Source of the DNA: Bacillota bacterium
GTDB lineage: Bacteria > Bacillota > Bacilli > Alicyclobacillales > SLC66
NCBI GenBank assembly: GCA_021820825.1
Contig: JAKADD010000212.1
Coordinates: 1 to 5,314 of the forward strand
Direction: 5' to 3'
Length of the DNA: 5,314 nt
Shown: positions 1 through 5,314 of the stretch, piece by piece
Layout of the letters: the number at the start of each line of letters is the position of its first letter
Numbering within the stretch: position 1 is the stretch's first letter
The notes under the pieces: model-generated
Databases searched by the model: none
The model's input: only the letters and a program-made list of their open reading frames with translations
What the model was told of the DNA's origin: nothing
Translations under genes and position numbers: made by a program

Positions 1-693
1 TGCCCCCGACCGCTTTGCTTCGTGGGCGCGTTCAATCACACGATCGCAGGACGATGTAATATTGGGAAGATATACGCTGTTTCCCCCCGTCAGGGCGTTC
101 GCGTCGCAGACTGCCGCCGCGCATCTTTTCACCCGCTCGCTCCAGGGCGCAAAGGACTGATCCGCAAGTCCGTGATCATCCTTGATGAGATCTATGCCAC
201 CGCGCGCACAGGCGTGCGCCAGGCGGGCCAGTGAATCTGCGGACAGGCCCAGCGGCTTGAGCGCCGTGCTCAACAGGGGGCGCCGAGGCTCCTGAAATAT
301 TTGCCGGAGCCCTGATCGACCGAACCGGGGGCCATCATACATGTGTAAAAAACGCGGTGATAATTGCAGGCGTTCAAGCCGAATCCCTGCTTGCAAACTG
401 ATATTTCCAAACACCACGTTGAATAGTTGAGTCAATTCGGCGCCCGCCACTTCGCTTGCAAAGGAGATGGTTGCAGTCCAACGACCCGCACCTTCTTGGG
501 AAAACGTTTCTATTCTGCCCACTATATGTTCAGGGATATCGCCCTCCGGCAACAGGTCCTCCGGAAATTCAACAGTCTGTTCAACGCAGATGCTGTGGGC
601 CGTCGCTCGCGCCTGTCTCTCATCGCCGCAAATAGAGTAGGCGGCGACAAAGCGTTCTCCGGACAGCGGGATATGAACAGGATCAAAGCGCAT
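1..693 (-). CDS. RuBisCO-like protein (form IV), N-terminal 231 residues; runs off left edge
   Basis: This is the last visible gene of the leftward operon and is open to base 1, so about half of a usual 370-430 aa protein is seen. Residues 1-135 fit the RuBisCO N-terminal domain (VVFGNISL at 93-100, DGPRFG at 120-125). Residues 138 onward enter the barrel: TALKPLGLS (143-151), GGIDLIKDDHGLADQ (165-179), YLPNIT (208-213). By motif alignment K146 equals spinach K175, K171 the carbamylated K201 and D173 the ligand D203. The metal ligand E204 is H174, and KP-LGLS is one residue shorter than KPKLGLS, losing K177. It therefore should not fix CO2, and it is not a typical MtnW enolase, which keeps KDDE. 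RLPs act as enolases, isomerases or decarboxylases on sugar phosphates. From memory, DDHGLA-type motifs occur in the non-photosynthetic branch that includes D-apionate enzymes. The ATG at 693-691 overlaps the previous stop (TAATG), with GGAGG at 705-701, 7 nt upstream. The family is firm; the substrate is inferred only. Confidence 0.9.
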   Translation of the reverse strand, partial: MRFDPVHIPLSGERFVAAYSICGDERQARATAHSICVEQTVEFPEDLLPEGDIPEHIVGRIETFSQEGAGRWTATISFASEVAGAELTQLFNVVFGNISLQAGIRLERLQLSPRFLHMYDGPRFGRSGLRQIFQEPRRPLLSTALKPLGLSADSLARLAHACARGGIDLIKDDHGLADQSFAPWSERVKRCAAAVCDANALTGGNSVYLPNITSSCDRVIERAHEAKRSGA

Positions 694-1700
694 TATAGAG
701 CCTCCGCCTTTGCTTCGCTATGGACCGGGTTCACCCGGACAGCGGTCAGTTCTCCGTCGTCAATAAACAGTTCCATTCCCACAAGGCGTTCAACGGTTTT
801 CACCAGCGCCAGCGCGTCCAGACCGTATTCCCGCATCAGATAGTGCTGGCTTGCCCCGTGTGCGAACTGGTCGGGGATTCCGATGCGAATGAGTGTGCGT
901 CCGCTGCCCGCCTCGGCCATCAGCTCGGCCACAGCGCTTCCCAACCCGCCGATAACCGTATGGTTTTCCATCGTAATCACGCCGTATCTGGTTTTGGAAA
1001 TAGACTCCAATATAGCCGGATCGGCAAACGGCTTCAGGGTCGACACATGGATATGTTCGATCGCGATTCCGCGTTTACGCAACGCGACGGTGGCCCGCAT
1101 GGCCTCTTCTGTGCAGATTCCCGAACTGATCAGTGTGATGTCGGATCCTTCACAAATGCGTCGCGACACGCCGAGCTTCATTCGTTCATTCCTGGCGAAC
1201 AGGCGGGGGATCTCGCCGCGCAGCATCCGGATATAAACGGGTCCTGGAATATCCTGAGCCACGTCAAGGACAGATTCAACGTCCGTGGCGTCACCGCATT
1301 CCAGCACCGTCATGTTGGGCAGTGACCGCATCACGGCAATATCCTCGATCGCCTGGTGCGTCGCGCCGCCCGGTGTCATGATGCCAGGCAGAAAGCCGAA
1401 CATGCGCACGGGCAGATTGGGATAGGCGATGGACATCGCGATCTGATCCAGGGCGCGGCGGTAGATAAACACCGCAAATGTATGAATAAATGGGTAGAAT
1501 CCCTCGCGCGCGAGTCCCCCCGCCATGCTCATCATGCTCTGTTCCGTCATGCCCATGGAAAAGAAACGATCCGGATACACGTCCCGGAACAGATCGATCT
1601 CCGTGGAACCTGTGAGATCTGCAGACAATACCAGCACCTCCGGTCGATCCTTCGCCCAGGATACGAGATTGTTCGCATGAACGCGACTGACTACTTCCAT
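693..1700 (-). CDS. Transketolase-like protein, C-terminal (pyrimidine-binding) subunit
   Basis: This 335 aa protein is the second half of a split thiamine-diphosphate transketolase. Such subunits carry the pyrimidine-binding domain, whose glutamate activates ThDP, plus the transketolase C-terminal domain. ADLTGSTEIDLF (27-38) and FFSMGMTEQSMMSMAGGLA (46-64) contain the catalytic Glu E53. FAVFIYRRALDQI (75-87), the THQAIEDIAVMRSLPNMTV stretch (114-132) and PVYIRMLRGEIP (154-165) are typical of the family. The C-terminal domain shows LKPFADPAIL (222-231) and ENHTVIGGLGSAVAEL (245-260). The family motif usually read FGESG is FAHGASQ (279-285) here, which may reflect another substrate. The gene overlaps its upstream partner by 10 nt and has its own AGGAGG at 1713-1708, 7 nt before the ATG, so coupled expression in fixed ratio is likely. 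The complex should move a two-carbon ketol unit between sugar phosphates in the cytosol. The donor and acceptor cannot be read from sequence. AptB-type (apulose-4-phosphate transketolase) and general transketolase roles are alternatives. Confidence 0.9.
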   Translation of the reverse strand: MEVVSRVHANNLVSWAKDRPEVLVLSADLTGSTEIDLFRDVYPDRFFSMGMTEQSMMSMAGGLAREGFYPFIHTFAVFIYRRALDQIAMSIAYPNLPVRMFGFLPGIMTPGGATHQAIEDIAVMRSLPNMTVLECGDATDVESVLDVAQDIPGPVYIRMLRGEIPRLFARNERMKLGVSRRICEGSDITLISSGICTEEAMRATVALRKRGIAIEHIHVSTLKPFADPAILESISKTRYGVITMENHTVIGGLGSAVAELMAEAGSGRTLIRIGIPDQFAHGASQHYLMREYGLDALALVKTVERLVGMELFIDDGELTAVRVNPVHSEAKAEAL

Positions 1701-2635
1701 CGCTCACCCTCCTGTTCCATGGTTTGCAGCGCGAGTCGATACTCGTCGCGCTCTGTCTCACTCCTGAAACGAACATAATGCAGTTTTGGAATTCGCTTCT
1801 GCAACAGTGAAATGCCAGCGCAGGGATCTGTGCGACAAAGCACAACGACCGGGGCGCCCCGGCCAGTGGCGGCAGCTGGTTGCGCCAGGGCTTCGACATC
1901 ATGCCCATCCACTTCAAACACGATAGCGCCAAACGACCTCAGCTTCGCCGGCAAATCGCCGAGATCAAGAACAGCGGTCATCTCACCGTCGCACTGCTGA
2001 CCATTGACATCCACGTAGATCAAGACATTGTCCAGGCGATGGTGATACAGAAGTTCAAATGTTTCCCACGTCTGACCCTCCTGGAACTCGCCGTCTGACA
2101 TATAGACGACACAGCGTCCACGTTCGTTCCGAAGTTTGCGGGCCAATGCGACTCCCGCCGCCTGACTCAGTCCCTGGGCAAGTGAACCTGTCGTCAGTTC
2201 CATGCCAGGGGAGTGTTCGGCGCCAATCATTTCCACGGTGCCGCCATCTCTGTTGAACTGCAGCAGCCCTTCCGGAGACATCCTGCCCACTTCAATCAAT
2301 GCGGCGTAGAGCACCAGCGCGTAGTGCGCGGGCGAAAAAAAGAAGCGATCCAGATCGGCGTGCTGTGGACCGTTGTACAGCGCGCCCGTGGCACTGCCCT
2401 TGCCATGACCGGGAACTCCCGCAAATGCAGCGGGAATCGCGGGCGCCGCGCTCTCGCCGATATGGAGGACTTTCGTATACAGAACTGCGATGGTCTCGGC
2501 GGCGGAACAAGCCTGACTCAGATAACCGCCGTTGTTATCGATCGTATGCTCCAGCACACGGCGGCGAATTCCGTTGGCGACCTTCCTGGCGGCATGCGAC
2601 CACTGTTCTTCCGAGAGCTGTAGATCCACATTCAT
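1691..2635 (-). CDS. Transketolase-like protein, N-terminal (ThDP diphosphate-binding) subunit
   Basis: This 314 aa protein is the N-terminal half of the split transketolase completed by the next gene. It binds the diphosphate and metal ends of ThDP: SDGEFQEGQTWE (180-191) is the GDGxxxEGxxxE motif with Ser for the first Gly, followed by LDNVLIYVDVNGQQCDG (201-217) with the metal-ligand Asn at N211. TTGSLAQGLSQAAGVALA (148-165) and DGHD (243-246) are also family motifs. Two points are unusual. The usual SKGH or SNGH before the active-site His is SPAH (101-104). The usual TxxGKG stretch is replaced by TDPCAGISLL (269-278), followed by KLHYVRF (284-290). These changes suggest a specialised substrate pocket; a housekeeping role is less likely. 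GGAGGA at 2647-2642 lies 6 nt before the ATG, and only 18 nt separate this gene from the mtnA stop, so it belongs to the same operon. Active enzyme would need a heterotetramer with the C-terminal subunit. Confidence 0.9.
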   Translation of the reverse strand: MNVDLQLSEEQWSHAARKVANGIRRRVLEHTIDNNGGYLSQACSAAETIAVLYTKVLHIGESAAPAIPAAFAGVPGHGKGSATGALYNGPQHADLDRFFFSPAHYALVLYAALIEVGRMSPEGLLQFNRDGGTVEMIGAEHSPGMELTTGSLAQGLSQAAGVALARKLRNERGRCVVYMSDGEFQEGQTWETFELLYHHRLDNVLIYVDVNGQQCDGEMTAVLDLGDLPAKLRSFGAIVFEVDGHDVEALAQPAAATGRGAPVVVLCRTDPCAGISLLQKRIPKLHYVRFRSETERDEYRLALQTMEQEGERWK

Positions 2636-2653
2636 GTCGATTCCTCCAAAACG

Positions 2654-3694
2654 CTAGTTAAACAGTTTCGCCAATCCTGCTGTGAACGGTGGATACACGA
2701 TCCCCTTCTCCGTGATAAACGCCGTGACGTACTTGGCTGGGGTGATGTCAAACGCCGGGTTGCGCACCGCGGCGCCAGGCAATGTGATCAGTGTGTCGCC
2801 GATCGTGGTCACTTCAGCCGCCGCTCGTTCTTCGATCTCGATCATGTCGCCGCTCGCCGTCTGGCGATCCAGCGTACTGAGCGGCGCCGCCACGTAAAAC
2901 GGCACACCGTGCGCGTGCGCGGCAAGGGCCAATTGATACGTTCCGATCTTGTTGGCGACATCGCCGTTGGCCGCGACTCGATCACACCCGACCAGACACA
3001 GGTCAATGCCTGTTGTCCTCATGATGTGCGCGGCGGCGCTGTCCACGATCAGCGTGTGGGGCACGCCCAGTTGTGTCAGTTCCCACACCGTCAGCCGCGC
3101 GCCCTGAAGACGCGGCCGCGTCTCATCGACATATACGTGCACCTGTTTGTTCTGGACGTGGGCAGAGTGAATAACGCCCAGCGCAGTGCCATGCTCGACG
3201 GTGCCAAGCGCTCCCGTATTACAGTGATGCACGATGTTGGCGCGGTCTGGAATGAGTGCGGCGCCAAACGCTCCGATGGCGCGGTTCACCTCGCCGTCTT
3301 CCTGATAGATGCGGTTCGCCTCAAGCAGGACAGCTTCGCGAATTGTCGCCGCCGAATCGTCGGGGAGCGCGTGCACGCGTTCCAGCACTCGCCGCAGCGC
3401 CCATCTCAGGTTGACGGCGGTGGGTCTGGCCTGCTGCAGTTCGTCCGCCGCAATCTCCAGACGCTTGCGCAAGGCGGGCCCATCCATGTTGGTGTCAGCG
3501 CCGGCCGCCAACACCAGCCCATATGCGGCAGATACTCCGATGACCGGCGCGCCGCGCACAGTCATGTTTGCAATGGCCTCCGCCACGCTCCGGTGATCGG
3601 TCAGATCCACATACTCCACCTGTGCGGGCAACAGCCGCTGATCCAGCAACCGCAGACGATCGCCCAACCATTCCACACTGCGAAACGCGGTCAT
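2654..3694 (-). CDS. mtnA: S-methyl-5-thioribose-1-phosphate isomerase
   Basis: MtnA converts 5-methylthioribose-1-phosphate to 5-methylthioribulose-1-phosphate in the cytosolic salvage of methylthioadenosine from polyamine and SAM metabolism. Homologues also accept 5-deoxyribose-1-phosphate. At 346 aa it has normal family length. Visible motifs are RGAPVIGVSAAYG (47-59), RPTAVNLRWALRRV (90-103), HHCNTGALGTVEHGTALG (156-173) with catalytic Cys C158, DETRPRLQGARLTVWEL (190-206), GCDRVAANGDVANKIGTY (236-253) with catalytic Asp D238, and RNPAFDITPA (311-320). C158 and D238 correspond to C160 and D240 of Bacillus subtilis MtnA, so the enzyme should be active. It is the first gene of the leftward operon, upstream of the transketolase pair and the RLP. 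The ATG is preceded only by a weak CGGAG; a nearby ATG 7 nt upstream is out of frame, and the start keeps the usual N-terminal VEW...LLDQ motif. No mtnK, mtnN, mtnB, mtnC or mtnX is visible, so the canonical pathway is not shown here. Confidence 0.96.
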   Translation of the reverse strand: MTAFRSVEWLGDRLRLLDQRLLPAQVEYVDLTDHRSVAEAIANMTVRGAPVIGVSAAYGLVLAAGADTNMDGPALRKRLEIAADELQQARPTAVNLRWALRRVLERVHALPDDSAATIREAVLLEANRIYQEDGEVNRAIGAFGAALIPDRANIVHHCNTGALGTVEHGTALGVIHSAHVQNKQVHVYVDETRPRLQGARLTVWELTQLGVPHTLIVDSAAAHIMRTTGIDLCLVGCDRVAANGDVANKIGTYQLALAAHAHGVPFYVAAPLSTLDRQTASGDMIEIEERAAAEVTTIGDTLITLPGAAVRNPAFDITPAKYVTAFITEKGIVYPPFTAGLAKLFN

Positions 3695-3727
3695 GATCCA
3701 TGGCTCCGTTCTTTGATTTCATCATGA

Positions 3728-3744
3728 TGACGGCAGCACCGTCA
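3728..3744 (-). promoter_or_regulatory. Short hairpin-forming inverted repeat just upstream of mtnA
   Basis: TGACGG and CCGTCA form 6-bp arms around a 5-nt centre. The repeat lies about 33 nt before the mtnA start and directly abuts a 12-bp perfect palindrome TCATCATGATGA (3719-3730), with which it overlaps by three bases. In the mtnA transcript it could fold into a small stem near the ribosome site, or in DNA act as a protein site. No T-run follows, so it is not a terminator. Function is unknown. Confidence 0.4.
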
Positions 3745-3756
3745 AAGTATGAATAA

Positions 3757-3783
3757 TGTGCGCAGTTGATCCTTCTGCGCACA
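3757..3783 (-). promoter_or_regulatory. 9-bp perfect inverted repeat in the mtnA leader
   Basis: TGTGCGCAG and CTGCGCACA are perfect 9-bp arms separated by 9 nt. The GC-rich arms would make a stable stem in the leader RNA about 63 nt before the mtnA ATG. No run of T follows on either strand (ATTATT on minus, ACAATCC on plus), so an intrinsic terminator is unlikely. A repressor or activator operator, or a leader hairpin, are both possible. It does not match the conserved cores of the SAM-I riboswitch or T-box that I know. Confidence 0.5.
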
Positions 3784-3795
3784 ACAATCCCTTCG

Positions 3796-3811
3796 ATATA
3801 GATTTCTATAT
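3796..3811. promoter_or_regulatory. 16-bp AT-rich palindrome, operator-like
   Basis: ATATAGA and TCTATAT are 7-bp perfect arms around TT. An AT-rich dyad of this size in a divergent intergenic region is typical of an operator for a dimeric regulator. It sits downstream of the candidate mtnA promoter and 137 bp upstream of the plus-strand membrane gene. No regulator is identified in the window apart from the damaged GbsR-like fragment, and I have no evidence linking the two. Confidence 0.4.
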
Positions 3812-3837
3812 GAGTGACCCAACTCCTCCTGGGTACG

Positions 3838-3865
3838 ATTTTAGCCGAATTATTGCGCGGAGCAA
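3838..3865 (-). promoter_or_regulatory. Candidate sigma-A-type promoter for the mtnA operon
   Basis: On the minus strand TTGCTC (3865-3860) and TAAAAT (3843-3838) are separated by 16 nt; the -35 matches 3 of 6 and the -10 matches 5 of 6 consensus bases. Transcription would start near base 3831 and give a leader of roughly 135 nt containing all three inverted repeats. It overlaps the candidate plus-strand promoter, so the two directions could interfere. This is the best match I found, but it is weak. Confidence 0.3.
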
Positions 3866-3881
3866 ATGGCTGTCGTATAGT
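3853..3881 (+). promoter_or_regulatory. Candidate sigma-A-type promoter for the membrane-protein gene
   Basis: TTGCGC (3853-3858), a 17-nt spacer, and TATAGT (3876-3881) give an ideally spaced promoter with a good -10 (5 of 6) and a moderate -35 (3 of 6). It lies about 50 bp upstream of the plus-strand gene starting at 3933 or 3945. No better candidate was seen between the two divergent genes. Confidence 0.35.
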
Positions 3882-3932
3882 CAACGGAGAGGGAACATTC
3901 CTTTTTATGGTCCATGCCGCTAACAGTCAGGA

Positions 3933-4343
3933 ATGGTGAGTAGAATGCGATTGGCGCCTTGGTTAATGGTAAGCATAGCGATAACTTTTTTATTTACGGG
4001 TAACGAACAAAATATTTTAGTAAGAATACAACATAACTGGTCCGGAGCCATCATTGTCCTTGTCGTTGGTTTCATTTACCAAAGTCGTTTTGGGTTAACT
4101 CGCAAAAGTGTCGGACAGCAAATTCGATTAATGAGCAATAAAAAACGCACTACATTACGAGTTTTGGGAGTAGTGACTTTCCTTTTAGGCATTTTGATTG
4201 AGCTATTTCTCTACTTCCTTCCAAATATCATCCTAATTCCACTGATTGTGATTTGCGCCATGGTTGCCCCAACATGCCTCTATTATTCATACTACTCGAA
4301 GGGGAGTTCAGTTGCTATCGATAAGAAAGGGCATTTTCACTGA
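3933..4343 (+). CDS. Hypothetical small membrane protein, about four helices
   Basis: I do not recognise this 136 aa protein. Hydrophobic stretches at about residues 8-22, 36-50, 77-96 and 98-118 predict four membrane segments. Between helices 2 and 3 is a basic loop (residues 52-76, with SNKKRTTLR at 68-76), probably cytoplasmic, and the tail after residue 122 is short and polar. There is no enzyme motif and no convincing signal peptide separate from the first helix. The start is uncertain: ATG at 3933 has AGGA directly against it, GTG at 3936 is also in frame, and ATG at 3945 (residue 5) has GGTGAG 4 nt before it. The later ATG is quite plausible and would not affect the helices. Base composition is far more AT-rich than the mtnA operon, which suggests a different origin. 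The gene is followed after 159 nt by the GNAT gene on the same strand. It probably sits in the cytoplasmic membrane; its role is unknown. Confidence 0.65.
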   Translation: MVSRMRLAPWLMVSIAITFLFTGNEQNILVRIQHNWSGAIIVLVVGFIYQSRFGLTRKSVGQQIRLMSNKKRTTLRVLGVVTFLLGILIELFLYFLPNIILIPLIVICAMVAPTCLYYSYYSKGSSVAIDKKGHFH

Positions 4344-4403
4344 CGTCTCCTTGATGGGTTCTAAGGGCACCGACCCAGTACACACCCATCGTACTGGAGA
4401 CGT
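4343..4403 (+). repeat. Nested inverted repeat after the membrane-protein gene
   Basis: ACGTCTCC (4343-4350) pairs with GGAGACGT (4396-4403). Inside it ATGGGT (4354-4359) pairs with ACCCAT (4384-4389), and GGG (4365-4367) can pair with CCC (4374-4376). A rival 7-bp stem, CCAGTAC (4375-4381) with GTACTGG (4391-4397), overlaps the outer stem and would exclude it. The repeat begins at the last base of the upstream stop codon. Only a broken T-run (TTTCTATT) follows, so it could be a weak terminator, an RNA-stabilising structure or a switch controlling the downstream GNAT gene. The pairing is seen directly; the function is inference. Confidence 0.5.
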
Positions 4404-4502
4404 TTCTATTAAAGCAAACCCGGTAAAGCAACCCCGGAAAATTAGCGTATCCAGGAATGTTATTGGGCGGGATAGTTTAGGAAACTAAGAAAGGAGACGC
4501 CG

Positions 4503-5042
4503 ATGCAAATAAAATTTGTAGAATACAGCCAGTCAGACCAAGACGAAATTGTTCATTGGTTGACATCTGAAACGTGGGAATATTTTGAGACACCATCACC
4601 AACGCAAGAAATGATTGTAAATTGGGAGTCAAACGGGCATTTTCATGGCGAGCAAGCGAGGTCGTTTTGGATTCAATCGGGAATTGGGGAGAATGTCGGT
4701 TTTATCACAGTGTTTGAGATACGGGATCCAATCCCAAGAATCGATCTTCGAATCAGTGCTCCCTATCGTAGGATGGGCATTGGAAAGCAAGCACTTCGCT
4801 TCATCGCTGATTTTGTATTTCGGGAGTTACCTGCAGCGTTGCGCATTGAAGGTAATACAAGGCAAGATAACATCGCGATGAGAAAGACATTTGCAGCTTG
4901 CGGATGGGTGAAGGAATCACACTACCGAGCATTGTGGAAAACAGAAACAGGAGAGTATGCGGCAGCTATTGGATACGCCATTATAAAACAGGATTGGTTG
5001 AATGGAACCGTGACGGCAGTAGACTGGAGCGATGAACCATGA
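4503..5042 (+). CDS. GNAT-family N-acetyltransferase (RimJ/RimL-like)
   Basis: This 179 aa protein is of normal length for a GNAT enzyme, which transfers an acetyl group from acetyl-CoA to an amine. The acetyl-CoA pyrophosphate loop is RRMGIG (89-94), following the beta strand RIDLRISAPY (79-88) and leading into the helix KQALRFIADFVF (95-106). The second conserved block is IEGNTRQDNIAMRKTFAACGW (115-135, with N118 and N123), followed by KESHYRALW (137-145), then YAIIKQDW (158-165), a common ending in the RimL-like group. The substrate cannot be told: protein N-termini, small amines and antibiotics are all acted on by relatives. AAGGAG at 4491-4496 lies 6 nt before the ATG, so the start is well supported. 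No clear promoter was found in the 159-nt spacer, so it may be co-transcribed with the membrane-protein gene, subject to the nested repeat between them. GC content is intermediate between the AT-rich neighbour and the operon. Confidence 0.88.
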   Translation: MQIKFVEYSQSDQDEIVHWLTSETWEYFETPSPTQEMIVNWESNGHFHGEQARSFWIQSGIGENVGFITVFEIRDPIPRIDLRISAPYRRMGIGKQALRFIADFVFRELPAALRIEGNTRQDNIAMRKTFAACGWVKESHYRALWKTETGEYAAAIGYAIIKQDWLNGTVTAVDWSDEP

Positions 5043-5068
5043 TAAGGAAACGCGGGTAAGCAGAATAG

Positions 5069-5314
5069 TATTTTGCACATCTGCGGAACTCATTGCAAGA
5101 TGCTTCTACACAGCCACTCCTGAAACTAAGTGAGTACAAGAAATCGCGACGCGCGAATGTATTATATCTGCAGATAAGACTGTTTCGCAAAGTCGGGATC
5201 CCCGGAAGCCGAAGGGATCACTATGAGATTCAGTCTGATGCGTGGACCGGGGCGTTTCGGGCGAGTCTGGCGCAGGGGCAGGCGTTTCAGAGTTTATTGG
5301 AACGGGCGGCGGCC
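5069..5314 (+). pseudogene. Partial or degraded GbsR/MarR-type transcriptional regulator, runs off right edge
   Basis: From a TAG stop at 5066-5068 the frame stays open to the window end (82 codons). It contains no ATG; the first TTG is at 5093. The segment RLFRKVGIPGSRRDHYEIQSDAW (from codon CGC/AGA at about 5177 to 5245) closely resembles the wing region of GbsR-like MarR regulators, where a pattern like LVRKVxxPGxRRDYYE follows the recognition helix. The downstream residues (FRASLAQGQAFQSLL) fit the dimerisation helix. The usual 60-90 residues before it, including a clear winged-helix recognition helix (SKxNVS pattern), are absent or scrambled; only ANV and LKLS remain. Another frame nearby reads TSAELIARC (about 5079-5105), which may be the shifted remnant of the helix-turn-helix. 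I read this as a frame-disrupted gene. It could instead be an intact gene with a non-ATG start, or one broken by acquisition of the neighbouring AT-rich DNA. The family call is moderate; its pseudogene status is inferred. Confidence 0.5.
5165..5176. repeat. 12-bp perfect palindrome
   Basis: TATCTGCAGATA reads the same on both strands. It lies inside the degraded regulator, exactly where the recognition-helix region should be, so it may be a chance product of the decayed sequence. No function is claimed. Confidence 0.3.

Follow-up and report, generated by a model that had tools for sequence, protein, structure and literature searches.

A conserved operon of a divergent split transketolase and a RuBisCO-like protein as a candidate branch of methylthio- and deoxypentose salvage

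What would a transketolase do between an enzyme of methylthioribose salvage and a relative of RuBisCO? The question is raised by a 5,314-nucleotide stretch of DNA from a Bacillota bacterium (assembly GCA_021820825.1, contig JAKADD010000212.1; this whole stretch is the window below), in which the gene for 5-methylthioribose-1-phosphate isomerase (mtnA) is followed by genes for the two halves of a split transketolase (TK_N and TK_C, together TK) and for a RuBisCO-like protein (RLP). The initial annotation had read these genes as a possible salvage route for methylthio or deoxy sugars. We find that the TK-RLP pairing is well supported as a conserved arrangement and is not a local oddity. We give about even chances to the reading of the operon as a late, thiamine-dependent branch of 5'-methylthioadenosine (MTA)/methylthioribose salvage.

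The four-gene operon and its conservation

The operon mtnA-TK_N-TK_C-RLP is confirmed: all four genes lie on the minus strand within the span first described, and profiles confirm the identity of each. The mtnA gene (2654..3694) passes the MtnA equivalog models (TIGR00512, 420.4 bits with a cut-off of 279; NF004326, 452.4 bits with a cut-off of 271) and stays below the cut-off of the ribose-1,5-bisphosphate isomerase model (TIGR00511, 240.4 against 314.1 bits); its nearest chain in the Protein Data Bank (PDB), 1t9k, is named a probable methylthioribose-1-phosphate isomerase. It is separated by 18 nucleotides (nt) from TK_N (1691..2635), the thiamine-diphosphate-binding half of the divergent transketolase, which matches PF00456 (67.7 bits, cut-off 22) and has as nearest PDB chain 6yak, the N-terminal component of a split transketolase. 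TK_N overlaps by 10 nt with TK_C (693..1700), the pyrimidine-binding and C-terminal half, nearest to PDB chain 6yaj. Matches of TK_C to PF02779 (104.4 bits) and PF02780 (71.7 bits), both over cut-off, place it in the transketolase family at the domain level. Both halves carry altered active-site residues and score below the cut-off of every NCBIfam transketolase equivalog. The RLP gene (1..693; PF00016, 61.8 bits, cut-off 30.1) overlaps TK_C by 1 nt and is represented by the first 231 of about 385 residues, the rest lying beyond the window edge; its nearest complete relative, P0121, has 385 amino acids and is 97% identical.

The closest named loci, L001 and L002, both belong to Bacillota metagenome-assembled genomes (MAGs). 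L001 has the same four genes in the same order, and its operon ends with RLP since the next gene is on the opposite strand. In L002 a remnant of mtnA (4257-4733, 158 amino acids) precedes TK_N, and a full mtnA is found elsewhere in that genome (L142), adjoining mtnK, Dak and an aldolase/dehydrogenase-like gene. A search for an RNA family or riboswitch upstream of the operon gave no Rfam match in the window at E values up to 1. One promoter and one terminator were predicted in 3500-4600, neither of them above shuffled sequences, and we discarded both; a plasmid origin of the window was also rejected, with no near match among plasmids.

To see how far the arrangement extends, an alignment of the RLP was scanned against species-representative genomes, and the best 80 loci of at least 509 confirmed relatives were used. 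Neighbouring genes were assigned by locus profiles built from clusters of these same 80 loci, with representatives checked by Pfam or NCBIfam, and the neighbour counts therefore lean on this clustering. In 58 of the 80 loci TK_C and RLP occur together and share a strand, and 52 loci have TK_N, TK_C and RLP together; the arrangement is not unique to one strain, which the initial annotation had named as a ground for refutation. A cupin gene accompanies RLP in seven loci, TK and cupin occur together in none, and 15 have neither, some of them because the contig ends. With the window counted, TK_C and RLP share a strand in 59 of 59 loci and their frames overlap in 37 (23 with an overlap of 1 nt, 14 with one of 4 nt); the two genes are 757-805 nt apart in L048, L058 and L075, and the gap of L017 is not among the measured spacings. 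The TK loci come from 10 named phyla (Bacillota, Chloroflexota, Nitrospirota, Acidobacteriota, Spirochaetota, Planctomycetota, Myxococcota, Calditrichota, Elusimicrobiota and one Lokiarchaeota bin), and a TK locus is also found in a Candidatus Aminicenantes bin. Many are from metagenome bins, where mis-binning is possible, above all for the single archaeal bin.

An even draw of 798 genomes (398 Bacillota and 400 Chloroflexota) is independent of selection by RLP. Nine of the 398 Bacillota have the RLP family at 420 bits or more, the next match being at 179 bits; TK adjoins RLP in six of these and the cupin in three, and all six TK_C matches at E 1e-70 adjoin an RLP. Among the 400 Chloroflexota, 12 have RLP at E 1e-60, with scores down to 282 bits (G713); TK stands beside six, a cupin beside three (102, 104 and 199 bits in the cupin profile) and neither beside three, one of which is at a contig end. 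Nine TK_C matches were obtained there at E 1e-70; RLP adjoins six of the seven that score 386-550 bits. We excluded the matches in G487 and G490 (254 and 264 bits, 43-45% identity), which are probably canonical split transketolases; this RLP was absent from both genomes at E 1e-60. Both draws pooled, 21 RLP genomes divide into 12 with TK, six with cupin and three with neither, and 12 of 13 TKs adjoin RLP (12 of 15 if G487 and G490 are included).

Exchange of partners and the transketolase active site

The nearest PDB chain to the complete relative P0121 is 3qfw (266.8 bits, followed by 4nas with 155.0), which we take to be an RLP of Rhodopseudomonas palustris; it forms a long branch outside 83 RLPs in our tree. 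The window RLP, as a partial query, passes no RuBisCO, MtnW or OiaX equivalog cut-off. Its scores with the MtnW models (TIGR03332, 68.1 bits against 513.6; NF007095, 98.3 against 409) are low in part because the query is incomplete. The tree itself (87 rows) is a quick maximum-likelihood tree from a short search under a simple model and has many open forks. In it TK-partnered (59) and cupin-partnered (9) rows are intermixed, with at least five changes between the two labels; if cupin is set against all other rows there are six changes, four of them forced by strongly supported (starred) branches.

The available text of PMC5893883 describes RLP1 of R. palustris, of the DeepYkr clade, as an isomerase that converts 5-methylthioribulose-1-phosphate to 1-methylthioxylulose-5-phosphate, and the cupin encoded next to it as a 1-methylthioxylulose-5-phosphate methylsulfurylase that releases methanethiol. 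Since cupin and TK take turns as partners across the RLP tree, TK would act on 1-methylthioxylulose-5-phosphate if the RLP reaction has remained unchanged. That the substrate of TK is probably the substrate of the cupin is our main inference. Gene content was surveyed in 30 genomes, which are relatives of the window: 25 with TK-RLP, four with cupin-RLP and one (L006) with neither beside RLP. The best cupin matches in the nearest relatives are 21.9 bits (G001) and 21.2 bits (G002), whereas six other genomes have matches of 192-336 bits. In one Chloroflexota clade (L035, L036 and L064) the same RLP stands without TK or cupin. These RLPs adjoin dihydroxyacetone kinase and sugar ATP-binding cassette (ABC) transporter genes, to which L036 adds an FGGY-kinase-like gene, and perhaps belong to another pathway.

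The active site of the RLP-linked TKs is rebuilt. We aligned 53 TK_N and 58 TK_C sequences linked to RLP, including those of the window, and for comparison 21 canonical split and 9 or 4 fused transketolases. Residue numbers are those of the window proteins; equivalents in Escherichia coli transketolase (EcTK) were placed by motif and carry what we take to be the EcTK numbers. The His of the N-terminal "GHP" motif (EcTK H26) is replaced by Tyr38 in 52 of 53 TK_N, with one gap, and the second "GHP" His (EcTK H100) by Met136 in 51 and by Leu in two. The His position of "SKGH" in TK_N holds His104 in 30 and Gln in 22. In TK_C the phosphate-motif His has become Leu104 and the adjoining Asp Gly111 in all 58; at the first Arg of RSFHR, 48 of 58 have Ser, Thr or Ala, and Lys or Arg frequently follows one position on. 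The motif reads S-S-F-L-R in the window. Retained are the donor His115 and also Arg161 (each in all 58), the catalytic Glu53 (in 57 of 58), His286 (53 of 53) and the metal/thiamine diphosphate (ThDP) motif Asp181...Asn211. Two subtypes of TK_N can be seen: the His104 subtype (30) mostly carries a Glu in the proton wire, at the position five residues ahead of the conserved Glu, and the Gln subtype (22) has Ser, Ile or Ala there. Neighbouring mtnA, mtnK and transporter genes go mostly with the His104 subtype and occur in three of the 22 of the Gln subtype.

These replacements touch residues that read the substrate. According to the available text of PMC7661550, H100 of EcTK reads the donor, its equivalent is always Phe in 1-deoxyxylulose-5-phosphate (DXP) synthases, and the H100F and H100L variants have raised activity with pyruvate. 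The available text of PMC11659671 describes RSFHR as orienting the phosphate in the transketolases of C. hydrogenoformans and S. stipitis, and as altered in the sulfofructose enzyme. A Met at the H100 position fits a donor that lacks the C1 hydroxyl; a 1-deoxy donor fits the loss of the H100 equivalent equally well, which favors 5-deoxyribose as a competing substrate (see below).

The same alignment bears on a plainer explanation, in which the TK is an ordinary housekeeping split transketolase that lies beside RLP by chance. Split transketolases are known and common (available text of PMC7661550), and our alignment alone holds 21 canonical split copies. On the other hand, all 25 TK genomes have, in addition to a PF00456 match at 53-82 bits, at least one other at 161-510 bits, which is a canonical transketolase; the weak match was tied to RLP by coordinates only in those of the 25 with a known operon position. 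Replacements in the active site are found in 53 of 53 TK_N or 58 of 58 TK_C, and the pairing with RLP recurs in the even genome draws. Because a canonical transketolase is present in 25 of 25 genomes and the donor and phosphate residues are replaced, the RLP-linked TK is not a housekeeping enzyme; we rejected this explanation on the second transketolase and the active-site losses, and see next to no likelihood in it.

Salvage genes, a proposed pathway and its rivals

Among the 58 TK loci, mtnA is present in 14, mtnK in nine and either of them in 15, and mtnA lies directly upstream of TK_N in seven loci and in the window. As mtnA is an optional neighbor, the core of the arrangement is TK_N-TK_C-RLP. 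In Clostridium drakei (L079) the genes for a solute-binding protein, an ABC ATPase and a permease, mtnK, mtnA, TK_N, TK_C and RLP stand in one row, and Alicyclobacillus sp. ALC3 (L050) and the Lokiarchaeota bin (L066) have mtnK, mtnA, TK_N, TK_C and RLP. The mtnK genes of L079 and L058 pass TIGR01767. A gene that overlaps the RLP end in L043 exceeds the cut-off of the methylthioinosine phosphorylase model (239.0 bits against 223); with the MTA phosphorylase model it reaches 240.8 bits, below that model's cut-off of 274.85. The salvage route linked to MtnA that had been proposed at the outset thus stands in part: a conserved TK-RLP core, mtnA or mtnK in 15 of 58 loci and the cupin as an alternative partner speak for it, but the link to mtnA itself is optional (14 of 58).

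At the level of whole genomes, MtnA is over cut-off in 29 of the 30 (24 of the 25 with TK), MtnP in 24 (19 of 25) and MtnK in 10 (10 of 25), and 22 of the 25 TK genomes have MtnP or MtnK. O-acetylhomoserine sulfhydrylase is over cut-off in 25 of the 30 and in 22 of the 25. MtnB and MtnD were not over cut-off in 29 of the 30, G001 and G002 included. Of the relatives whose operon is intact, G001 is the nearest; it has MtnP and O-acetylhomoserine sulfhydrylase, its sole MtnA is the one in this operon, and no MtnB, MtnD or MtnK was over cut-off. Genes beside the TK loci that had been considered as O-acetylhomoserine sulfhydrylases, and so as proof of methanethiol, lost weight: the neighbors in L016, L017 and L050 best match cystathionine gamma-lyase/synthase or methionine gamma-lyase models, none over cut-off.

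If the operon is the thiamine-dependent branch, MtnA, assigned to its family by profile and with a known family function, would make 5-methylthioribulose-1-phosphate, which RLP would isomerise to 1-methylthioxylulose-5-phosphate, as suggested by its clade and by its cupin-partnered relatives. A TK_N/TK_C heterotetramer would replace the cupin methylsulfurylase and cleave the C2-C3 bond of this ketose with the help of thiamine diphosphate, giving glyceraldehyde-3-phosphate and a two-carbon unit. The latter would most likely lose methanethiolate from the enamine to form acetyl-ThDP, and then acetyl-phosphate or acetate along with methanethiol, from which O-acetylhomoserine sulfhydrylase could make methionine. 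Phosphoketolase, which loses water, and sulfoacetaldehyde acetyltransferase, which loses sulfite, are precedents for such an elimination from the enamine. On chemical grounds we prefer the elimination of methanethiol, since a thiolate should leave readily from a position beside the thiamine enamine. The action of TK on the RLP product appears to be the better supported part of this scheme, and the fate proposed for the two-carbon unit its weak part. A "methylthio-phosphoketolase" that converts 1-methylthioxylulose-5-phosphate and phosphate to glyceraldehyde-3-phosphate, acetyl-phosphate and methanethiol is a tentative suggestion, possible and short of probable.

Another possibility is that methanethiol is not eliminated: TK would free (methylthio)acetaldehyde intact or hand the methylthio two-carbon unit on to an aldose. 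This would be the simplest transketolase chemistry and corresponds to the wording of the initial annotation, and the split transketolase SqwGH ends by releasing sulfoacetaldehyde (available text of PMC11659671). However, the aldolase of the dihydroxyacetone phosphate (DHAP) shunt makes methylthioacetaldehyde from the MtnA product in one step, as described in the available portions of PMC5893883 and PMC10986504, so reaching that aldehyde through two enzymes would gain little, and transfer of the methylthio unit to an aldose would yield a dead-end sugar. We consider this outcome improbable.

Microcompartment shell genes lie beside three or four of the 58 TK loci. In L032 (3912-12258) the TK-RLP genes come directly after genes for shell proteins (PF00936, PF03319) and a CcmP-like protein, and one gene there is nearest to acetylating acetaldehyde dehydrogenase (TIGR02518, 535.7 bits, below the cut-off of 620.1). 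L062 resembles L032 in its layout, judged by open reading frame (ORF) lengths and EutN hits, and L034 is cut; L033 has EutN genes, a class II aldolase gene and mtnK beside TK-RLP. A microcompartment for the breakdown of methylthio- or deoxypentoses is a possible explanation. The natural reading of the shell and acetaldehyde-dehydrogenase-like genes in L032 is an aldehyde, perhaps acetaldehyde formed from 5-deoxyribose via DXP, and the natural substrate of the set could be 5-deoxyribose instead of a methylthio sugar, with acetaldehyde arising via 5-deoxyribulose-1-phosphate and DXP. MtnK and MtnA also accept 5-deoxy sugars (available text of PMC10986504 and PMC8102628). Against this, shell genes are confined to the three or four loci mentioned, and an aldolase would yield acetaldehyde from 5-deoxyribulose-1-phosphate in a single step. 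RLPs of this clade are not known to act on 5-deoxyribulose-1-phosphate. A preference for 5-deoxyribose is in our view rather unlikely but still a rival to be taken seriously, and one enzyme set might serve both methylthio and 5-deoxy sugars.

Several observations weigh against the thiamine-dependent methylthioribose branch. There is no mtnA near 44 of the 58 TK loci, and in the setting of L032 an aldehyde product would fit better than acetyl-phosphate. K68 and K240, which hold the cofactor diphosphate in the C. hydrogenoformans enzyme (available text of PMC7661550), correspond to Pro in about 92% of the RLP-linked TKs; with both lysines mostly replaced, the cofactor pocket, and with it cofactor binding, is altered too. 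Strict exclusion of cupin and TK within a genome fails in one of the 25 TK genomes, G029, which also has a cupin gene, located beside an O-acetylhomoserine sulfhydrylase gene and with no RLP in the 7 kb taken. MtnB and MtnD are each over cut-off in one of the 30 genomes, the same one (G023, the Alicyclobacillus of L050); this genome is the one exception as regards the complete canonical mtn pathway elsewhere in the genome that the initial annotation had named as part of a refutation. Absence counts are in any case weakened by the incompleteness of MAGs. At least eight TK genomes (G008, G010, G012, G014, G015, G016, G028 and G029) have a class II aldolase, below the MtnB cut-off, within about 3.5 kb of mtnA or mtnK, and 5-methylthioribulose-1-phosphate may hence also enter the DHAP shunt in these organisms. 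No class II aldolase gene occurs in the window or in the four-gene operon of L001. In three Chloroflexota loci (L031, L037 and L049) mtnA and genes for an LsrF-like thiolase/aldolase, a short-chain dehydrogenase and a class II aldolase precede TK-RLP, so that two options for cleaving a carbon-carbon bond are present within one cluster.

Strict dependence of TK on RLP likewise fails, in one of the 13 TKs of the even draws. G467 has a split TK of this type (L135, 3163-5177) with the signature motifs of the family beside two SBP_bac_1-like solute-binding-protein genes, and no RLP was found within 7 kb of it or in the genome at E 1e-60. This observation also counts against the proposed branch, and a TK of this type without RLP is what one might see if the set handled some other sugar, of the apiose/apionate type or imported, and mtnA, mtnK and the like were chance neighbors. 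Transporter genes near some TK loci (SBP_bac_1-type in 12 of the 80 loci, Peripla_BP_4-type in eight) and the FGGY-kinase-like and Dak genes beside some TK-less RLPs (L036) could be taken in the same way. Yet the kinase in nine of the 58 TK loci matches the methylthioribose kinase model, over cut-off in L079 and L058, and the cupin alternates with TK. The OiaX model gives the window RLP, a partial query, 71.6 bits against a cut-off of 700; the apiose/apionate alternative of the initial annotation was rejected for want of a supporting match. Some other sugar is a highly unlikely substrate on this evidence.

Flanking DNA, related systems and significance

The window aligns to L001 over 5-3725 with 84.8% identity (blastn), which includes a short stretch upstream of mtnA (3695..3725). 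The following 1.44 kb or so (3726-5167) does not align to L001, has a G+C content of 0.438 compared with 0.589 for the operon, holds a 136-amino-acid ORF without a Pfam match and a GNAT acetyltransferase gene, and looks inserted; L001 has at this place a shorter stretch between mtnA and a divergent gene of 169 amino acids. Window positions 5168-5314 on the plus strand are 86% identical to the later part of this divergent gene (6392-6534 in L001). As the earlier part was not found adjoining them, the gene seems to be interrupted in the window. By its position it looks like a regulator.

Among known systems, the MTA-isoprenoid shunt of Rhodospirillum rubrum and R. palustris also starts from the MtnA product, and its RLP seemingly belongs to the same broad clade, in which relatives of the window RLP adjoin a cupin (7/80; 6/21 of those drawn). 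That shunt uses the cupin methylsulfurylase and leads to DXP, whereas here a split transketolase is expected to form a three-carbon phosphate and a two-carbon unit. The DHAP shunt and the DHAP-methanethiol and DHAP-ethylene shunts likewise use the MtnA product independently of oxygen and cleave it into three and two carbons; their class II aldolase acts directly on 5-methylthioribulose-1-phosphate, whereas isomerisation by RLP followed by thiamine chemistry would be expected here. Some TK genomes have both TK-RLP and a class II aldolase. In Bacillus methionine salvage MtnA is also followed by an RLP, the enolase MtnW, but the MtnW models are far below cut-off on the partial window RLP, and MtnB and MtnD are missing in 29 of the 30 genomes.

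The split transketolase of 6yak/6yaj is divided into the same two chains as TK_N and TK_C, but it keeps the canonical His and Arg substrate residues, several of which the RLP-linked family replaces in every or nearly every member. SqwGH, the 6-deoxy-6-sulfofructose transketolase, is also split, acts on a sulfur-bearing sugar and has a changed phosphate motif (RAFDR for RSFHR); in the available text on it, however, the pathway and partners are different, the donor retains its C1 hydroxyl and no RLP is mentioned. No description of the TK-RLP operon was found in the open literature searched, with subscription papers and preprints largely uncovered, and this agrees with the earlier claim that no known route uses a transketolase. 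The available portions of PMC6302742, PMC5893883, PMC7895386, PMC8102628 and PMC10986504 do not describe the operon, and the word "transketolase" is absent from that of PMC6302742. Neither "transketolase" nor "thioribose" appears in the available main text of the microcompartment catalogue PMC8217296, its supplements being outside the search. As judged from sequence, what is new is a candidate branch of methylthio/deoxypentose salvage that joins a known type of RLP to an unreported transketolase subfamily.

Disposal of MTA and recovery of its sulfur in anaerobes without MtnB and MtnD is only partly known, through the DHAP shunts and the MTA-isoprenoid shunt, and TK-RLP is a candidate third oxygen-free branch of this salvage. 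Cultured carriers include Heliobacterium mobile, Heliobacterium chlorum, Heliophilum fasciatum, Sporotomaculum syntrophicum, Alicyclobacillus sp. ALC3 and Alkalispirochaeta alkalica. Should the methylthio-phosphoketolase reaction prove true, methionine salvage in at least 10 phyla and an Asgard archaeal bin would be oxygen-independent, redox-neutral and energy-conserving, and in some Chloroflexota and a spirochaete it would stand beside bacterial microcompartment genes. The TK-RLP branch, if real, would add a reaction to thiamine enzymology and a new partner to the RuBisCO superfamily; it may also be a source of methanethiol in anoxic habitats, and it would hint at what some unassigned microcompartments contain.

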